In this document: positions 3,420-30,189 of the stretch, in pieces
How the letters are laid out: the number at the start of each line of letters is the position of its first letter
How positions within the stretch are numbered: position 1 is the first letter of the stretch
Source of the DNA: Citrus sinensis
Lineage: Eukaryota; Streptophyta; Magnoliopsida; Sapindales; Rutaceae
Assembly: GCF_022201045.2 (NCBI RefSeq)
Contig: NC_068558.1
Span: forward strand, 1,798,001 to 1,862,000
DNA: 64,000 nucleotides
Reading direction: 5' to 3'
Translations under genes and position numbers: made by a program
The notes under the pieces: generated by a model
The model's database searches: none
The model's input: only the letters and a program-made list of their open reading frames with translations
What the model was told of the DNA's origin: nothing

Positions 3420-6400
3420 ATGGAGAAGATATCGCCTAAAAGTCCTGTGGTGTATGAGAGATACAAATCTAGCTGTGCATGGTGTTTAATTCGGTTCTGT
3501 GACTTTGGCCAAGGTGACTCTAATAACAGGAAGCTGATTTCTCATGGGAAAGGACTTAACTCACAAGTTTTAAGTAAGTATTTTATAATCAAAGATCGGT
3601 TTCTGCTGTTTCATAAATTGCTATATAAGAATGGAAGCCATTTTTATTGATCTATTTGTCAAGTCTGAACTGTTTTTAGATCCTACAGCTACGATGTTCA
3701 ACTTGGTTCTGTATTCTGTTTTTTCATATGCAGGTGGATTGGATTCAAGGAATAGGCTTGATTTGCTTTCCAACTCCAATGTAAAATGCCAGTGTATTGA
3801 TGTAAGTATCGGCAACCTACCTATTTTTGGGTTACCAACTTAACTTACTCCTGTTATTGATCCGTTCCCCCTAATTTCTGTAAATTTTTTTTCCCTAAAT
3901 GTAAGTTTTACGGAGAAGCGCCATCTATGCCAATTAGCATCTCAATTTGTTTCAGGGTGGAGTAAACAACAAGTCTCAGATGATTGATTCTGATAAGGCA
4001 GATGTAATGAGAATGAGAAAAGGAGAAGGAGAGATGGCCACTGAGTTGCAGGTCAACAAGAAGATCACTAATACTGAAGGGCAACATACACCATCTAATA
4101 ATACACAGCCCGTTGGTCGCTTGCCGACTAACCATAAAAGAAAGACAAGCAAGACTTTTCAGATGCATGGTTGTAAGGACATAGCAACCATGGGCCAGAG
4201 ACAGCCTTATAATGAAAGTTCAGCAGACAGATCTTCAATAAAGTGTACCAAAGCGATACCGACAGAAGCATCCGGCACTATGGCACATCCTAGGAGGGAT
4301 TGTGACTGTAGAAGTGTCAGCCATCCAAAGAATAAACGGGTTAGTGAAATAAATTTGCAAGTTAAGATGAATGAGGCAGCGGAAGCATTCGTAAATCAGA
4401 AGTTCACTAAAGGAAAATTCCTCGGCAAAAACAAGGCCAGCCACCAGTCTAGACATTTCTTGGATGCATTAGAGATATTGAATTCCAACAAGGAATTATT
4501 CATAAATCTGCTACAAGATCCCAATTCTTTGTTAGTCAAACATATCCAAGATTTGCGTCATTCTCAGGCAAACAAACAGGAGATCAACTGTAGCTTCCCA
4601 GAAGCTAAATTGTCAGAAAATTGTGGAACGACAGTCAGTAAAAGTAAAGAGCATGTCTGCAATCAAGTATCTTGTGACAGATACCCAACTAAAGGCAGTT
4701 TTGATCCTCAAACTTCAGAAAGAATTGTGGTTCTGAAGTGTGGATCAATAGCCGTGCAAAATGGTGCAGCTGACACCAGTGATTGCTCCTCTCCAGAGTC
4801 TCTTTATAGATTGAGGAATGAAGTGCAGAGTGCTAAACCTGCATATTTTTCCTTAGGACATATGAAGAGGAAGTTGAGACATGCTATTGGGTTTAGCAGA
4901 AAAGAGAAGAAGCCCTCGACATCAACTGATTGTACAAGACATAAATCTCCTATTGACATTGAGGACTCGGGAGATGGTGGTGGAGGAAATTGTCCGGAGA
5001 CTGCACAAAGCAACCCATTGAGCAAGTGCAATCTTGGGACTGGTCAAATGGCAAAGTCTTTCTGTGTCAGGAAGGGAGCCAAAATGGGCAAACTGAAGGA
5101 TTCTGCGTCAGGTACTAAAGAGCCAGTTGCTGCGAATGGTGGAAGTGACCTTGGAAACTCAACATCGTCCATTGTCGGGCATCTTAAACAAATTGAATCT
5201 AATATATACCTTGAATCTACGAACCATCTCTCTGAGGTTGTAAGGAAGAGAAATGAAGATTTTTCAAGAAAACAGGTACTGACGAACTCCAGAAGGATTG
5301 GTTCTCTGCCTGAATATGACTTCTTGGGAAGGTACCAGGACCATGGCTTTAATGCTGCACAGATGAGATTTTCTTCTTATAGCTATTACCAAATGGTCAA
5401 TGAAAAGAAACAACATCAGAAAGAGAAGAAAAATGGGTACATAAGTCCTGTGAGGCAGATCATAGAGGCTCCATCCTTAGCAGATTATAAGAGATTTACT
5501 GATCAATTGCAAATCTTTGATAGGAAGCCAAATGACTCCGGCAATCATTTTCCTGATATCAAAAGGTACAAAAGGTTTAGTTCCCTAAGCGATCCTTCAA
5601 GCTCTAGAGGTAATTTTTTGTTACTTTTCCAATTCTCGTGGTTCTCAAATACTTTATCTTGTCTAAGCAGCTCAGTTAATATTCAGGTTCTGTGTATAAT
5701 TCTGTGAAACGTGGAGAAATTAGTTCTTTGGGAGTTCCCTTTCAATCAAATGAATCACATAATAATGGTGCAACTCAAGGTTCTGGTCCCACCTACACGT
5801 ATGAGGACAATGAACTTTTGGAGTGCTCAAAATTGGTAAACTTTGATTCCCAGCTCTGTCAAATAAATTAGTAGTGCTTCTGTCCATATTCTTTTCTATT
5901 ACATTTTATTCTACTGCAACTCTGTGACATACTTCAGTGCATTGTTTTTTGCCACCGATTTTGGCCTTCTTCAGGATTTCCCTATGGAAAGCTTAACATC
6001 TCCATCTTCAGAAGATGCTTATTTTTCAAGCCCTTTAAGCATGAAGAAACTGGAAGAGTCTAATGGCATGAAAGATAAAGCAGAGCATGCAAGTCCAGTA
6101 TCTGTTCTGGATCAGTTCTTCGTTGAAGATATCCCTAGCCCTCTAAGCACCATATCTCGATCTGGTAGGCTTTCAAGTCAGCAATCACGAGTTATTTGTT
6201 TTTGTTCTTCCAAAATGTTGCTGACTTTACCAACTTGAACTTCTGCAGCAGAGCCAGTAGTCGAGCCAAAACAAGATTATTGTGAAGAAAACTCTTGCAC
6301 TGCTCCTGTGACATCTCCTGCAGATCTGAAGATCAATTCAAGCAATACCATGAATGAGCATGAATCCTTGTCCCAATATGTAACAGCAGTGTTGCAAGCT

Positions 6401-23079: not shown

Positions 23080-24834
23080 AATTATAAGACGCCGAAGAAG
23101 ATACACGTATAATTGAAGGTCTGAGGTTACATCCATGGAAATCAATTGGGCGCTTCATTCTCTCCAACCTGAACCTTCACCCATGCATGTAGCTACTAGC
23201 CACGCCCACGTAGCACGTGGATGTGGTTCTTGTTTGATCACACATTTAAACAAACCCCATTCACTAATAAACAAGTAGAATTCTTTTTTTCCAAAAAAAA
23301 AAAATTATATAGAATAAATAAATTTGGGGCTGATTGCGGCGAGTTGTTAATTTTAATTAATTGCTGACCTAGCTACCTGTCAAACAGTTTATTGATGGGG
23401 GCTTCTATTGACTTTATCGGTATGGGTGGCGGAGAAATAACCTTTCCTAATTTGAACTCTTTGAATTTTTTAAGATCTTATATCATTTATCTTTGAGTGA
23501 TAATATATGTGCATAATTTAATTTTTTTACTTTATTTATTTATTAACTACCAATCACTCATATATATTTTTACTCAGGAAGAAATCAGATCAGAAGAGAA
23601 TCTTAATCCGTGCGTGATAAAATTTTATAATTAAGAATCTCTAATAAATTGAGTGTCAGATCTGTAATAAATTTTAAAAGGTCCGGTTATATTGAAATTC
23701 CTATAAAATAAAATACGTCTTCATAACTACACAATTAAAATTATAATGTATTTTTTACTATTTATCATTTTAGTTATGTAGCTATAATTTACCCTCTATC
23801 TCATAACTACTCCCAAAGTAGTCATTCCCTTTTAACAATATAAGTTGTTAATTGGTTTGCTCGTGAACTTCTTTGTTTGCGGTTTCAATGGCGAAGTTAT
23901 TCTGATTTTTTTCACTCTTCTAGCATTAATTTGCTGCTCCATAATGATCCACTAATAATAATGCTATGTCGAATTTAATATGATGGTGGGATCAATCTTT
24001 GTTTGGTGCTTTTATATCTTTTAGAAACACGATATGGTCATATGATTATATTGCGATAAAATTAATTAGTCATATGACTATAGCATGATCAGAAGCATTC
24101 ATCTTGTATCTTGTCATACACACGAGATTCAAAGTTTGAAATCAAAAACAAATTTCTAGTGATTATATTTACTCATACTAATTAGCATCGACTAAAGAAA
24201 CCTATTAATCTTCTATAAAAGATTTATAAAACCAAACAACTCCTCATCCTCAAGTCCCAAAACGGTAGACATATTGAATGATGGTAAACTTAACCCCTCC
24301 CGGCCTCCCCCCCCCCCCACCACCCAAGAGAAAAAAAAAAAGGCATGTGTCATCCACATCCTTCTTTCTCTACATTACATATATTGATTTGTTGAGACAA
24401 CAAGCTAAGAAATGAAAATTCCTCAATTCGTATTGTTAATTGAATATTAAATCCTATTAAACTAGTTCAATTGATAAAATCTACCATATAGAATCAAGAG
24501 ATGTAGACTCTAGCGTTCCAATTCAATTTATGTAGCTGAAGGGAGTATTAAGATACCATTAGTCCATAACTTCGGAAAAAAAATATATTAAACCCTATTC
24601 TTATCATATTTGTGATAAACAACGAAACCCTAGCCATAGCTAGGAACTTGTGGTCCTTCGGTTGAAGAAAGAAACAATAATTTTTTACCATTAATTAAAT
24701 AAAAAATAATTTAGTTCATTATTCGTGGTGTGAGTTCAAAATACAAACACAATTAGTCAATCATTGATTTCTTGCCAAGAAAAGCATCGAACATAGGAAG
24801 TTAGGTACCCACCAGGGCCACCACCATACAAGTG

Positions 24835-24867
24835 CCCCCCCCCCCCCCCCCCCCCCCCAAAAAAAAA
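24835..24867. repeat. C24-A9 homopolymer tract
   Basis: Twenty-four consecutive C directly followed by nine A, in intergenic DNA. A shorter C12 tract is at 24307-24318. Similar junctions recur at 47985-48012 and 53098-53126. Confidence 0.85.
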
Positions 24868-25258
24868 GAATCTAAAAGATCTGCGAGAATATATGATATA
24901 AGGATAACAAAAATTATTTCTAGTTTTGGACCAAATGCAGTAAATGCTAATTAATAACTCATTCTGTCTTTTTTTTTTTTTTCTCATTTTCACTGATAAA
25001 TCTCGAGAAATTTACATTTCTAATTACTTTTATAAAATTGTTAGCAAATTCAGTCACGTAACAAAATTTCTTATTATAATAGCTAATAGTTACACACACT
25101 CATGGACAATGGAGTGTATGTAATAAATTTCTCATTATAATATTTGGGAAATTTACACCAATAACCATAAATTTTTTTGTTTTTTTCATCTTAACCCCTC
25201 AAACAAATTTCTATCAACATTAGCCATAAAAGAACCGTTGAGACCAAATTACCCCTCT

Positions 25259-25637
25259 CTCTCATCTCCCTTTCCTCTTCCTCTTGCCTTCTTCTCTCCA
25301 GTTCTCTACTAATTTCAGCATCCACCTCTTTTTTCTTCTTCTCTCTCCTATAATCCTCGTAATCGTTCGGTCTAGCGGGGTCGTGCTCCTTGATTACGGT
25401 CGAAGTGACGTCAACCAATGCCGGTTGCGGCAGCGCTACCACGTCGTCGGGGGAAGGTGCGATTGCAGGTGAGGAATGGGGTCTAGTCGGGAGAGAATTT
25501 TGGGTGGTTTTGGGTTTGGATTGGGGCTTGAGAATGGTTTGTGGTGGCGCGAAAATTGACTAGATAGTGGTGGTCGTGTTGGTGGGTTTGTCCTCATCGG
25601 AGGGTGGAGGTAGGTCTCCATACAGCCCGCCTAGCAT
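25259..25637 (-). pseudogene. Captured N-terminus of a DRT111/SPF45-like splicing factor
   Basis: Reading the minus strand from the ATG at 25637-25635 gives MLGGLYGDLPPPSDEDKP, then an in-frame TAG, then FAPPQTILKP. Further on come QPALVDVTSTVIKEHDPARP and NDYEDYRREKKKKEVDAEIS, with a charged helix RRRQEEEEREMRERG. This order matches the N-terminal region of plant DRT111 (the SPF45 homologue, a splicing factor with G-patch and RRM domains). The G-patch and RRM are absent. The early stop and a deletion after it show that the copy is broken. The homology stops where the terminal repeat starts, as expected for transduplication. Confidence 0.85.
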
Positions 25638-25848
25638 TTCGCAACGTGGCTTTTAATGGAAAATCCCGGGGAATTTGAATTCCGAAATTGGATTTTGGAG
25701 AATTAAAAAGCTGATTTTGTTTTGTTGTTTGGGTTGTCGGATGAGATTCGATCTGAGGTAGAAGAAAATATTACATACGAATAAGAAGAGACGAACAAAG
25801 ACGAAAGGACTGGCGAAAACAAATAAATACTGAGGTAGAAGAAGGCAA

Positions 25849-25942
25849 CCTGTCGCACCAAGCATGGTGCGACAGGTGCCTGTCGCACCAAAGCATGGTG
25901 CGACAGGTGCCTGTCGCACCAAGACTTGGGCCTGTCGCACCA
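25849..25942. repeat. Palindromic GTGCGACA module
   Basis: CCTGTCGCACCA and TGGTGCGACAGG alternate, giving two to three adjacent hairpins with 12-bp arms. Related modules occur inside the next element at 26583-26655 and 27668-27725. Fortuitous translation yields repeated VRQAPVAPC-type peptides that should not be taken as a gene. Confidence 0.85.
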
Positions 25943-26215
25943 AGCTTCTTTTCGTTTGTAAAGAAGGGTAATTTGGGGAGAAAAGCGTATGTTTGGCTAA
26001 TGTTGATAGAAAAAAGTTGAGAGGGTTAATTGTGAAAATAGCAAAAATTTTATGGTTATTTTCGTAAATTTCCCATAATATTTGCTTCTAATTACCTGCA
26101 CAATGATGGCCATCACCCGGAGAGTTGAATAACTCTCACCAACACTCGTCCTCCATCGCCCGTGAGAGTTGAAAAGCTCTCGGCTAACTCTCATGGACGA
26201 TGGTCTCTATTGCCT

Positions 26216-28072
26216 GAGAAATTTACAAAAATAATCATAAAACTTTTACTATTTTCACAATTAATCCTCGAAATTTTTTTCTATCAACATTAGCCAAAGA
26301 CACGCTTTTCTCCCCAAATTACCCTTGTTTACAAACTAAAAGTAACTTTCTTTCTCCCCTTTTATCAAACCAAACGCAGCTTTGCACTCTTGAATCATCA
26401 CCGGCGACGGCAAAAGGCAACAGTAAACGCCGATGGTGAACGGTAAAAGTGAAATCTGATCATAATTCATCCGGATCCAACACCAATCGGCACCACTGAG
26501 TGGTTTAAGTTATTTTCTAAACTTGCGAGAGAGTTTCAGTGCAGTTGCTTGCTGCGAGTCGTTGGACAATCAACACGAAGCTATGTGCGACAGGTGCATG
26601 TCGCACGAAGCTATGTGCGACATGCGCCTGTCGCAGATAGGCGCCCGTCGCACAATTGATCACTATCATTTTCCAATTCGTCAAAATGGTTTCAAGTGAA
26701 TGAAGAGATCTAGTCAACTGTTAGCTATAGCTAGGGTTACTTTGATCTCTTGATCAGCTCGTTCCCATCCTAAACGCTGATTAAATAACATATATAATAT
26801 AAGTAGACCATTTTAACATACTTATTAAGTCACAGAACTGCTCCTTATATCATGTTGATAATAATATCAAAATCCAAAATCCAAATAGCTAGCTAAAATG
26901 GCATTCATCTGCACTTGCAACTGCACCTTGATGCATATAACACCATGCTGCCACCATATCTGCCGACTGCTATTGGCTCTTCTTGTGCTTTGGCTTTTAC
27001 GAACCAGAACCAAGTAACGCAACAAGATGCAGGTGCAAATGCAGATAAAGAATACATCTTAGCATCCTGTTCCTGTAGCATATTGGACGTCTATACATGA
27101 GGATATTGGGGCCCACCTCCGGCAGGCCGTCGTCGTAAAGGAGCGGGTAGAAGTTTACGAGCCCATGCGCCATTTTGTCTTTGCCGCCCCAGTCAACATG
27201 GCACCCGTGCTGTGTGTGGCCGCCTGTGAGCTCGTCGGGGGCCACCGCGAACAAGCCATTGTTGCTGCTGCTGCTTTGCATGTCATGCATGCAGCCTCGT
27301 TCATTCATGCAAACCAAATACGAAGCTTCTCATGGCGGATGCAATGCTTCCGTTTGGGCTGGAGTTGTTGGCCAGCTCCGACAACCCGGCCGGAAACAAC
27401 TCGGGTCGGATTTTACGTGTGATGGTTGAGATGACACGCGCCATGGGATCACAAGGTGTTGTGGAGGGGCAGTACAATGAGCTACAATGTAGTCAATGTG
27501 ATGAGATGATGATCGGAAATTGAATGGTACTACAGATGTGGAAATGACCTATGAAACATACAAGAAAAATGAAGGTGGGTTGCACACGTGCGGTGCGGCG
27601 TGTGGAGCAATATTAGGAGGTGGGAGTGTGGAGGAGATCGAGTTATCACTGAACCTTCAACTGCTAGCTATGTGCGACAGGGTGCCTGTCGCACGAAGCT
27701 TTGTGCGACAGGCACCCTGTCGCCAGATTCACCCACGACTGCAGTTCCCTGAAACTCTCTCGCAAGTTCAGAAAATAATTTATACCACTCAGTGATGCCG
27801 ATTGGTGTTGGATTCGGATGAATTATGATCGGATTTCACTTTTATCGTTTGCCGTCGGCGTTTACCGTTGTCTTTTGCCGTCACCGGTGATGATTCAAGA
27901 GTGCAAAGTTGCGTTTGGTTTGATAAAAAGGGAGAAAGAAAGTTGCTTTTGGTTTGTAAACAAGGGTAATTTGGGGAGAAATGCTTGTCTTTGGCTAATG
28001 TTGATAGAAAAAAGTTTAGAGGGTTAATTATAAAAATAACAAAAGTTTTATGGTTATTTTTGTAAATTTCCC
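26216..28072. mobile_element. Pack-MULE carrying a geranyl diphosphate synthase small-subunit copy
   Basis: A perfect 9-bp duplication CTATTGCCT (26207-26215 and 28073-28081) flanks a 1857-bp element. Its inverted repeats are long, about 340 bp each, from GAGAAATTTACAAAAATAA on the left to TTTTTGTAAATTTCCC on the right. They share CTTTTATCAAACCAAACGC and CCGGATCCAACACCAATCGG type blocks. GTGCGACA modules lie just inside each arm. No transposase is present. The centre holds a broken GPPS small-subunit coding region on the plus strand. The termini resemble the neighbouring 929-bp element. Confidence 0.9.
27078..27642 (+). pseudogene. Captured geranyl diphosphate synthase small-subunit-like pseudogene
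   Basis: Three blocks in two reading-frame shifts: 27078-27320 (AYWTSIHEDIGAHLRQAVVV, YEPMRHFVFAAPVNMAPVLC, VAACELVGG, MHAASFIH); about 27320-27522 (PNTKLLMADAMLPFGLELLA, RILRVMVEMTRAMGSQGVVE, GQYNEL); and 27524-27642 (YETYKKNEGGLHTCGAACGA, ILGGGSVEEIE). Order and motifs match the heterodimeric GPPS small subunit of monoterpene-producing plants. Both CxxxC motifs that mediate subunit contact are kept (CVAAC and CGAAC). About 15-20 codons are missing after MHAASFIHAN, with a frame change there and a second one near 27523. It cannot encode a normal protein. The intact parent gene is not in this window. Confidence 0.85.
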
Positions 28073-28512
28073 CTATTGCCTTGGAGATGATGATAAGAAA
28101 TTCATTCTGTTAAGTGGCTAATTTTGATAATAATATTGTAAAAGTGGCAAAATAGGTAAATTTCCCATAAATTTGGCTCTCTGCTTAATGAATTTATGTA
28201 TCATCAATTCCACTAATTCGAATTGAAGATTGTATTTGTACGTGGGGTGTGATTAATCTGCACATTGTTTCCACAATGAAATTAAAATTCCAACAATCAT
28301 CCAAAATCTAGTTCGTAATTAACCTCTCCCATCATAAAATTTCAACCATTGTTAACTTATCGGGAATGGGAGATTCTTTTCATAAAAAAAAGCATGAATC
28401 TCACTCACGGTATATAAAATGGCGGGTTGTCCTTAGACCTGTTTTCAATATAATAGAGTCGTAGAGATTGCGATTTTTTCTTTTAAATATTATATTAGAG
28501 AGTACAAAATAA

Positions 28513-29314
28513 GAGTGGAGTTATTGGCACCCCTCTAAGTTCCTAAAAAAACCCCTTTTCTGAGTGCACCGCTTAAATATTTTTATATATACATCACTTC
28601 TCAAAAATCACATTTTAATTCCAAAATTACCCTCATCACTTTACCCTTTTTTCCTTTTTTAGGTTTTAAATTCTCATCCTTCATATTTATATTTAGAACT
28701 TATTTATTTGTATCCATTCATTTCTCAAAACTAATCTTATTGATTTAATTTACAATAAATCGATTAACTTTTTCTTTTCTAGTCTTAAATTTTATCCCCA
28801 ACTACTGGTTTTCAATCCAATCTTCTATTCTTCGCATTTAAAAAAAAAATAATAATTCGATCTAGTTAGCTAGTATAAAAAATCAACAAAAAAATATATT
28901 TTCTTATATCTATCACAAGATCAAAAGAATGTGGGAAGCATAACAAATAAAGAGGTGAATCAGCTGCTGAAGAGTAGATGTTGTTATGGAGTTTTAATTA
29001 CTTAAATATTTAGATTTTATTTTTTTTGCTTTTAAAGTGTATTTATTTTTATTATCATAGTGACTTGATGACACTCTAGTGGATTTCATTTCAATTTCAA
29101 TTTGAAGTATTTGCTAGTTAAAAAAAAAAAATTGTTGCAGTTGCCGCCCCCGGGGGGGGGGGGAGGGGTTGTTCATTTGTTAAAGATGACGAAGGGGGTT
29201 AATTTCGGAAATAAACCAGAGTTTCAAATCACACTGCATTCATCAATTTACTTTGGGGTGCGGCAAGGAAAGGGGTTTTTTAAGGAAAGTAGTGGTGTGC
29301 CAATAGCACCACTC
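28513..29314. mobile_element. Non-autonomous MULE of a second terminal-repeat family
   Basis: A perfect 9-bp duplication ACAAAATAA flanks the element (28504-28512 and 29315-29323). The ends GAGTGGAGTTATTGGCACCC and GTGCCAATAGCACCACTC are inverted over about 55 bp, and both arms contain a CCTTAAAAAACCCC-like box. The interior is AT-rich with a C5G12 tract at 29147-29163 and no recognisable captured gene or transposase. Confidence 0.82.
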
Positions 29315-30189
29315 ACAAAATAAATATTGATAAATAGTGTCCATGTAAGCTGGGATCTAAAACCCAGCCCAATACTTGTCGGAATCTGTTGTGGTGTGTC
29401 AAAATTAAAACTCCAACCCTAAAATCTAAAACCAAAGTAATATATTAAAAAATTAAAAAAGAAAAGAAAAAAGCTCAGACCCAAGACGTTCAACCCTCAA
29501 ACGATGGGATAATGAAATGCGTGACCAACTCAATTAAAGAGTTTTTAAAGAGTTGTTGACAGAGATTGAATTTCGAAAAATGAGTATCAGTTGCTGTTAT
29601 ATTTGGCGGCGATGCATAGTTTGCTGGTTTTTGTAATTAACATAGAAAACGTATTAAATTGCTTTCAGGGAAATTATTACTTAATAATTTTTGAGATTTA
29701 ACGATTCTGAGCTCCCCCTCGTACATGAGCTTTGTGGAAGTTGTGACAAAGGTGCTTGGTTAAATTTTCTTTTGAACGCCAAAGGATCCCCAAAAGTCCC
29801 TCTCTTTGCTACAGAAAAGCCAACGTGGTTGATAATGTTCGGTGGTGTGTGTGTGTATATATATGGTGTGGTCTTCAATTCTTCAGCTTTTGTATTGCAG
29901 ATTGTTTCTGGATGTGTGCGTTTAATCCATATTACAAGTTCTCACCGCAGAAATTGCAAGTCCTAAAATACAATTCAAGAATGCTGGATCACGTGCAATG
30001 TTTGCCAAAAACTAACTCCAGAAAGCAAGTTTACTTGTTGAAGGCAAAAATATATACAATCTTCAGAAATCACAATATCTCAATGTTTCAAAGGCCATCC
30101 CAGCACTTAATAATTAAGACTTAAAGCATAAAACCAATTCATGATCAATACTAAGCTAAAAAAAGTTTATGTTACTGATGTAACTTACA
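29315..30189. other. Intergenic DNA and 3' flank of the BLOC-1-like gene
   Basis: No supported gene. ORFs at 29681-30124 overlap in three frames around a (GT)n/(AT)n stretch near 29846-29862 and have no family signature. Confidence 0.45.

Follow-up and report, generated by a model that had tools for sequence, protein, structure and literature searches.

Pack-MULEs of rice and other plants were reportedly treated by Jiang et al. in 2004 and again in 2011. In KI-MULE, also called Kaonashi, a MULE duplicated a ULP1-like protease, and DUF1985 is known from ULP1-like transposon genes. The names KI-MULE and Kaonashi, as well as a preference of Pack-MULEs for GC-rich sequence, appear in the sections of PMC8277862 used here, and two or more parents can be assigned to 5-10% of the putative genes in Oryza that derive from MULEs, according to the corresponding sections of PMC4858842. 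Within Citrus, CitMule of clementine has a FAR1 domain, short degenerate ends and 9-bp duplications (PMC4334395, in part).

The window analysed here, a 64,000-nt stretch of the Citrus sinensis genome, holds a 1857-bp element at 26216-28072. Like the Pack-MULEs in the available parts of PMC8277862 and PMC4858842, it has long MULE arms, a 9-bp duplication and no transposase of its own, it contains a GC-rich piece of a host gene whose parent lies on another chromosome, and it is present in more than one copy. Unlike the Pack-MULEs described in those parts, it has a donor, on C8, that matches no nameable gene, and pieces of the gene for the small subunit of geranyl diphosphate synthase (GPPS.SSU) are nested in the filler from that other donor. 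We put the probability at about 93% that this is a two-donor, two-copy, non-coding Pack-MULE consisting of C8 DNA with nested GPPS.SSU pieces and moved by a transposase acting in trans. It is a clear example of a non-coding mobile element of a kind well known in plants, not a new kind of thing. No published account of this element, or of a GPPS small subunit in a Pack-MULE, was found among the papers listed from the open-licence PMC literature. The features of the element, by window position, are as follows.

26207..26215: left target-site duplication, CTATTGCCT
26216..26655, plus strand: left terminal inverted repeat; its good part is 26218-26539, and short GTGCGACAGG-type repeats lie at the inner end
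26656..26867, plus strand: first piece of C8-derived filler, 94% identical to L018 from 3557 to about 3770-3780; right end approximate
26870..27081, plus strand: second piece of C8-derived filler, 97% identical to L018 4122-4333
27079..27313, plus strand: GPPS small-subunit fragment A, 96% identical to L009 3267-3033 of the C9 gene; CAT microhomology at the left join
27310..27646, plus strand: GPPS small-subunit fragment B, 96% identical to L009 2969-2635; contains a 2-nt frameshifting insertion
27643..27656, plus strand: resumed C8 donor sequence, 14 nt, L018 4365-4378; TTAT microhomology at the join
27657..27671, plus strand: scrap of 15 nt that matches C8 donor L018 3615-3629 exactly but is too short for certainty
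27668..28072, minus strand: right terminal inverted repeat; good part 27749-28070
28073..28081: right target-site duplication, CTATTGCCT

The ends of the element are sharply defined. The same 9 bp, CTATTGCCT, occur at 26207-26215 and at 28073-28081 and abut the element on either side, whereas pairs of 9-mers drawn at random from the window were identical in only 35 of 2,000,000 draws. The coordinates and the perfect duplication given in an earlier reading, made from the sequence alone (hereafter, the sequence-only reading), are exact. Its figure of about 340 bp for the arms is a fair one for their good part: 26218-26539 and 27749-28070 are 92% complementary over 322 nt with no gap, and similarity at 85% extends to 26640 and 27668 when gaps are allowed. 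Short palindromic repeats of the form GTGCGACAGG...CCTGTCGCAC are found at the inner arm ends (26563-26655 and 27668-27725) and also at about 25835-25940, and they are more numerous in the copy on C2 described below.

The C9 and C8 donors together explain nearly all of 26656-27671. When the C8 locus was aligned to the element with a word size of 7, C8 sequence was found both before and after the GPPS part, which is therefore nested inside C8-derived filler; a donor stretch of about 340-350 nt is absent between the two filler pieces. Both outer joins show microhomology, CAT (3 bp) from C8 to GPPS and TTAT (4 bp) from GPPS to C8, which random breakpoints equal or exceed in 5.4% and 1.6% of cases, respectively. 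Clear microhomology is absent at the join of GPPS fragments A and B and at the join inside the C8 filler, and a later deletion could have produced these two inner joins. Five frames around the C8 donor site gave no Pfam match up to 0.1 and an AMP-binding gene (PF00501) lies about 5.6 kb off, so that the donor is intergenic, intronic or part of an unrecognised gene. The broken coding region reported by the sequence-only reading is present with all of its motifs (CVAAC, GQYNEL and CGAACGAILGGG), spread over three reading frames, and no transposase was seen in the three element frames tested. The GC content of the GPPS part, 52.6% as compared to 35.0% for the window, agrees with the preference for GC-rich sequence attributed to Pack-MULEs in the sections used of PMC8277862.

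A genome search with the interior (26840-27660), in which all five first-pass candidates were scored, returned seven matches: the window itself, the C2 copy, a pair of adjacent blocks on C9, a block on C8, and two further matches on C9 that are weak. The adjacent C9 blocks belong to an intact 320-aa ORF with no visible intron (L009 2435-3397, minus strand), which matches PF00348 at 3.8e-11 and has as its best PDB match 3qkc_B, a GPPS small subunit (1.8e-77); against solved structures, three GPPS small-subunit sequences outrank every GGPPS chain. The ORF contains both CxxxC motifs, CVAAC and CGAAC, which we take to be a mark of the GPPS small subunit. This subunit steers prenyl synthases towards monoterpene precursors. 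The intact parent that the sequence-only reading proposed to look for thus exists on C9, with blocks 96% identical to the element, and the proposed transduplication of a terpene-pathway gene is borne out in the sense that the MULE took part of a GPPS small-subunit gene. That the element carries most of the subunit is correct by coding length, the captured blocks amounting to 235 + 335 nt, or 570 of 963 coding nt (59%); it is not correct for the first 43 codons, the last 66 codons, and the inner 63-67 nt between fragments A and B, all of which are absent.

The two weak matches (76% and 83%) fall at a second place on C9, about 7.3 kb from the parent blocks, where L019 4352-4915 (C9:27470351-27470914) represents a decayed GPPS.SSU-like paralogue; no minus-strand frame longer than 90 aa was found in it. 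The flanks of the element are not shared with the parent locus, as window positions 24001-25140, 26084-26206 and 28082-29500 have no match there, and no arm of the family of this Pack-MULE is found in the 7 kb around the parent. As for the right flank, only one other match, of 50 bp, was found in the same genome for the stretch up to about 28477, and therefore no paralogous empty site shows there.

The second whole copy, on C2 (L010 2276-4216), is 1941 bp long; its extra length is made up of additional short repeats where the right arm meets the interior. Its internal joins are the same, and it has its own 9-bp duplication, GAAGAAATC, which is unlike CTATTGCCT at the C3 site; the Pack-MULE has thus moved as a unit. 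The inner GPPS deletion and the 2-nt insertion are common to both copies, indicating that the moving unit was already non-coding. Relative to the window copy, the GPPS parent differs at 19/564 sites and the C8 donor at 14/418, while the window and C2 copies differ at 14/982 sites in the GPPS and C8 parts together. As the donor divergences are alike and the copy-to-copy divergence is lower, both donors fit one capture period that preceded the last transposition. With both donors, the joins and the daughter copy readable in one genome, one can follow in what order capture, frame loss and transposition took place.

The arms of the two copies differ at 24/698 sites, more than the interior (14/982; p = 0.007, Fisher's exact test), so no single simple clock serves for both; the excess may be due to methylation or to exchange with other members. 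When the decayed C9 paralogue, 75% identical, was used as an outgroup, six of nine polarisable shared differences fell on the parent's side and three on the element's side (seven could not be polarised), which makes the age of capture rough. Although an excess of C>T is general in plants, the copies are probably methylated and silent to judge from mutation type: 31 of 36 polarised copy-specific changes are C>T or G>A, comprising 11/14 in the interior and 20/22 polarised in the arms (of 24), and the sequence context of the six changes in the GPPS part is CG in five and CHG in one. These six, which are one synonymous and two replacement changes in the window copy and three synonymous changes in the C2 copy, are too few for a selection test.

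By sequence similarity, the arms are common to the Pack-MULE and to elements with Mutator-type transposase frames. Copy numbers for the arm family are lower bounds, as the best 40 of 738 candidates were scored. At 16 of 38 arm loci a transposase-like frame lies no more than 250 bp away, against an expectation of about 0.1 even within 3 kb; such frames were defined as matches to a 218-aa frame of one short member (L037), and 42 of 150 listed matches were compared with the 38 arm loci. That 218-aa frame matches the start of transposase frames, with at least 150 matches in the genome (150 of 490 candidates scored), more than 20 of which fall in frames of 880-900 aa. Downstream of an arm 82-83% identical to those of the Pack-MULE, L029 (C1:9542053) has a frame with PF10551 (3.5e-18) and PF03108, which is interrupted by a TAG and runs off the end of the fetched stretch. 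PF03108 was also matched in L050 (24.9 bits, for a cut-off of 25; arm 89-91% identical) and in L051 (35.9 bits, with a partial PF10551 below cut-off; arm 74-79% identical). Among the members read, no transposase-bearing one is complete with both arms.

Ends were examined at 21 loci (L010 and L021-L040), and both were found in ten. Perfect 9-bp duplications occur at the exact ends of five (L010, L021, L024, L030 and L032) and are offset by one base in two (L022 and L038), while those of three are not clean (L023, L037 and L040); as the scan admitted offsets and lengths of 7-11, weak matches mean little. The family is comparable to KI-MULE in that some kin bear Mutator-type transposase frames and DUF1985 pieces occur in three short members (L037, below cut-off, L038 and L040). 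KI-MULE is marked by a ULP1-like peptidase gene beside the transposase; no peptidase domain was seen in the frames scanned here, and those DUF1985 carriers that were looked at are short derivatives. The family resembles CitMule, as seen in part of PMC4334395, in being a Citrus MULE with 9-bp duplications, and differs from it (FAR1, short degenerate ends) in its long arms and in kin with PF03108, of MuDR type, and PF10551. Two other members carry gene fragments. L021 913-8549 (C8:13348412-13356048), flanked by a perfect 9-bp duplication, contains an inositol-phosphatase-like fragment (PF22669) and also apparent frames of a nested LTR retrotransposon. A 963-bp member on C6 (L032 1462-2424), with the duplication AAAGGCATC, has a legume-lectin-like fragment (PF00139).

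Gap repair inside a MULE copy probably gave rise to the mosaic. Synthesis would have left the arm for the C8 site as template, moved on to the GPPS gene, returned to C8 and finally to the arm, with matches of 3-4 bp guiding two of the joins, and the already frame-broken unit would then have been moved by transposase supplied in trans from transposase-bearing kin. This reading follows the Pack-MULE and Pack-TIR models in the available parts of PMC8277862 and PMC4858842. It is extremely improbable that GPPS.SSU was copied here by ordinary segmental duplication or as a processed pseudogene and came only by chance to lie between two MULE insertions. Identical joins recur at two sites that are not linked, with exact arms and a separate 9-bp duplication at each; C8 DNA flanks the GPPS part on both sides; the flanks of the parent locus are not shared; and the captured part begins and stops within the CDS. 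Intron loss is not usable as a discriminator here, since the parent ORF has no visible intron. It is scarcely conceivable that the element encodes a functional chimaeric protein. A stop-free run of 119 codons (27063-27422), in which about 77 GPPS-like residues follow the first six, would be its source, but this run has no methionine before the GPPS-like part, both copies contain two frame breaks, and the three element frames have no Pfam match at 0.001. For the GPPS fragment itself, protein function is rejected on account of the frame breaks common to both copies, and we infer that the element copies have no visible protein function.

The sequence-only reading further suggested that the GPPS copy, lying between long inverted arms, could yield antisense or small RNA against its parent. 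That this position would do so by itself is not supported: nowhere in the element is there an exact complement of 13 nt to the GPPS part, and hairpin RNA of the arms would therefore target the arm family and not the parent. Since the arms and the GPPS part do not pair with each other, we reject parent-directed hairpin small RNA as an immediate product of the arms; for small RNA against GPPS to arise, separate transcription in antisense or the action of an RNA-dependent polymerase would be required. Perfect identity with the parent over up to 167 nt (runs of 167, 59, 51, 39, 37, 36 and 25 nt) nevertheless means that parent-directed small RNA could arise. In keeping with these runs, and with the presence in the parent CDS of about half of the 21-mers (274/547 for the window copy and 253/547 for the C2 copy), the fragment might act in trans, with element transcripts giving rise to small RNAs that lower C9 GPPS.SSU expression and monoterpene output. 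We consider this very unlikely, in view of the missing complement, the intact parent ORF, the 7 kb around it with no arm of the same family, and a mutation spectrum that suggests a silenced element. Even less likely is an extended version in which the upstream C8 filler would supply a promoter for the GPPS fragment, small RNAs of both copies would tune C9 GPPS.SSU, and monoterpene scent would vary with the insertions. With a GPPS small-subunit donor, presence or absence of the insertion is simply comparable with scent.

Along with the second donor and the second copy, a neighbouring element at 25146-26074 goes beyond what the sequence-only reading had found. This second Pack-MULE, with the duplication ATAATATTT, ends 132 bp before the left CTATTGCCT, and its ends are similar to the arms of the GPPS element, one at 89% over 133 nt and the other at 76% over 110. 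It carries the start of a gene that has an intact-looking relative on C2 (87% DNA identity) and that we take to be SPF45/DRT111-like; the captured piece itself has no Pfam match. Counting this piece, the arm family and its near kin have captured at least four unrelated gene fragments (GPPS, inositol-phosphatase-like, lectin-like and SPF45-like). Of eight copies sampled, seven (all except the window's own) still have the native start together with a 148-aa frame that ends in the arm; captured codons are identical in four of these seven, and a fifth differs by one change. Compared to the C2 gene, dN/dS is 0.37-0.56, a value that includes that gene's own constraint and is based on 6-8 synonymous and 10-11 replacement changes, and the captured frame may possibly be under constraint. 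The whole 122-aa frame of the neighbour is matched at 93% or more in 30 places, including the window, and is stop-free in 25 of them, and all eight copies examined have perfect and differing 9-bp duplications; the neighbouring element looks recently amplified.
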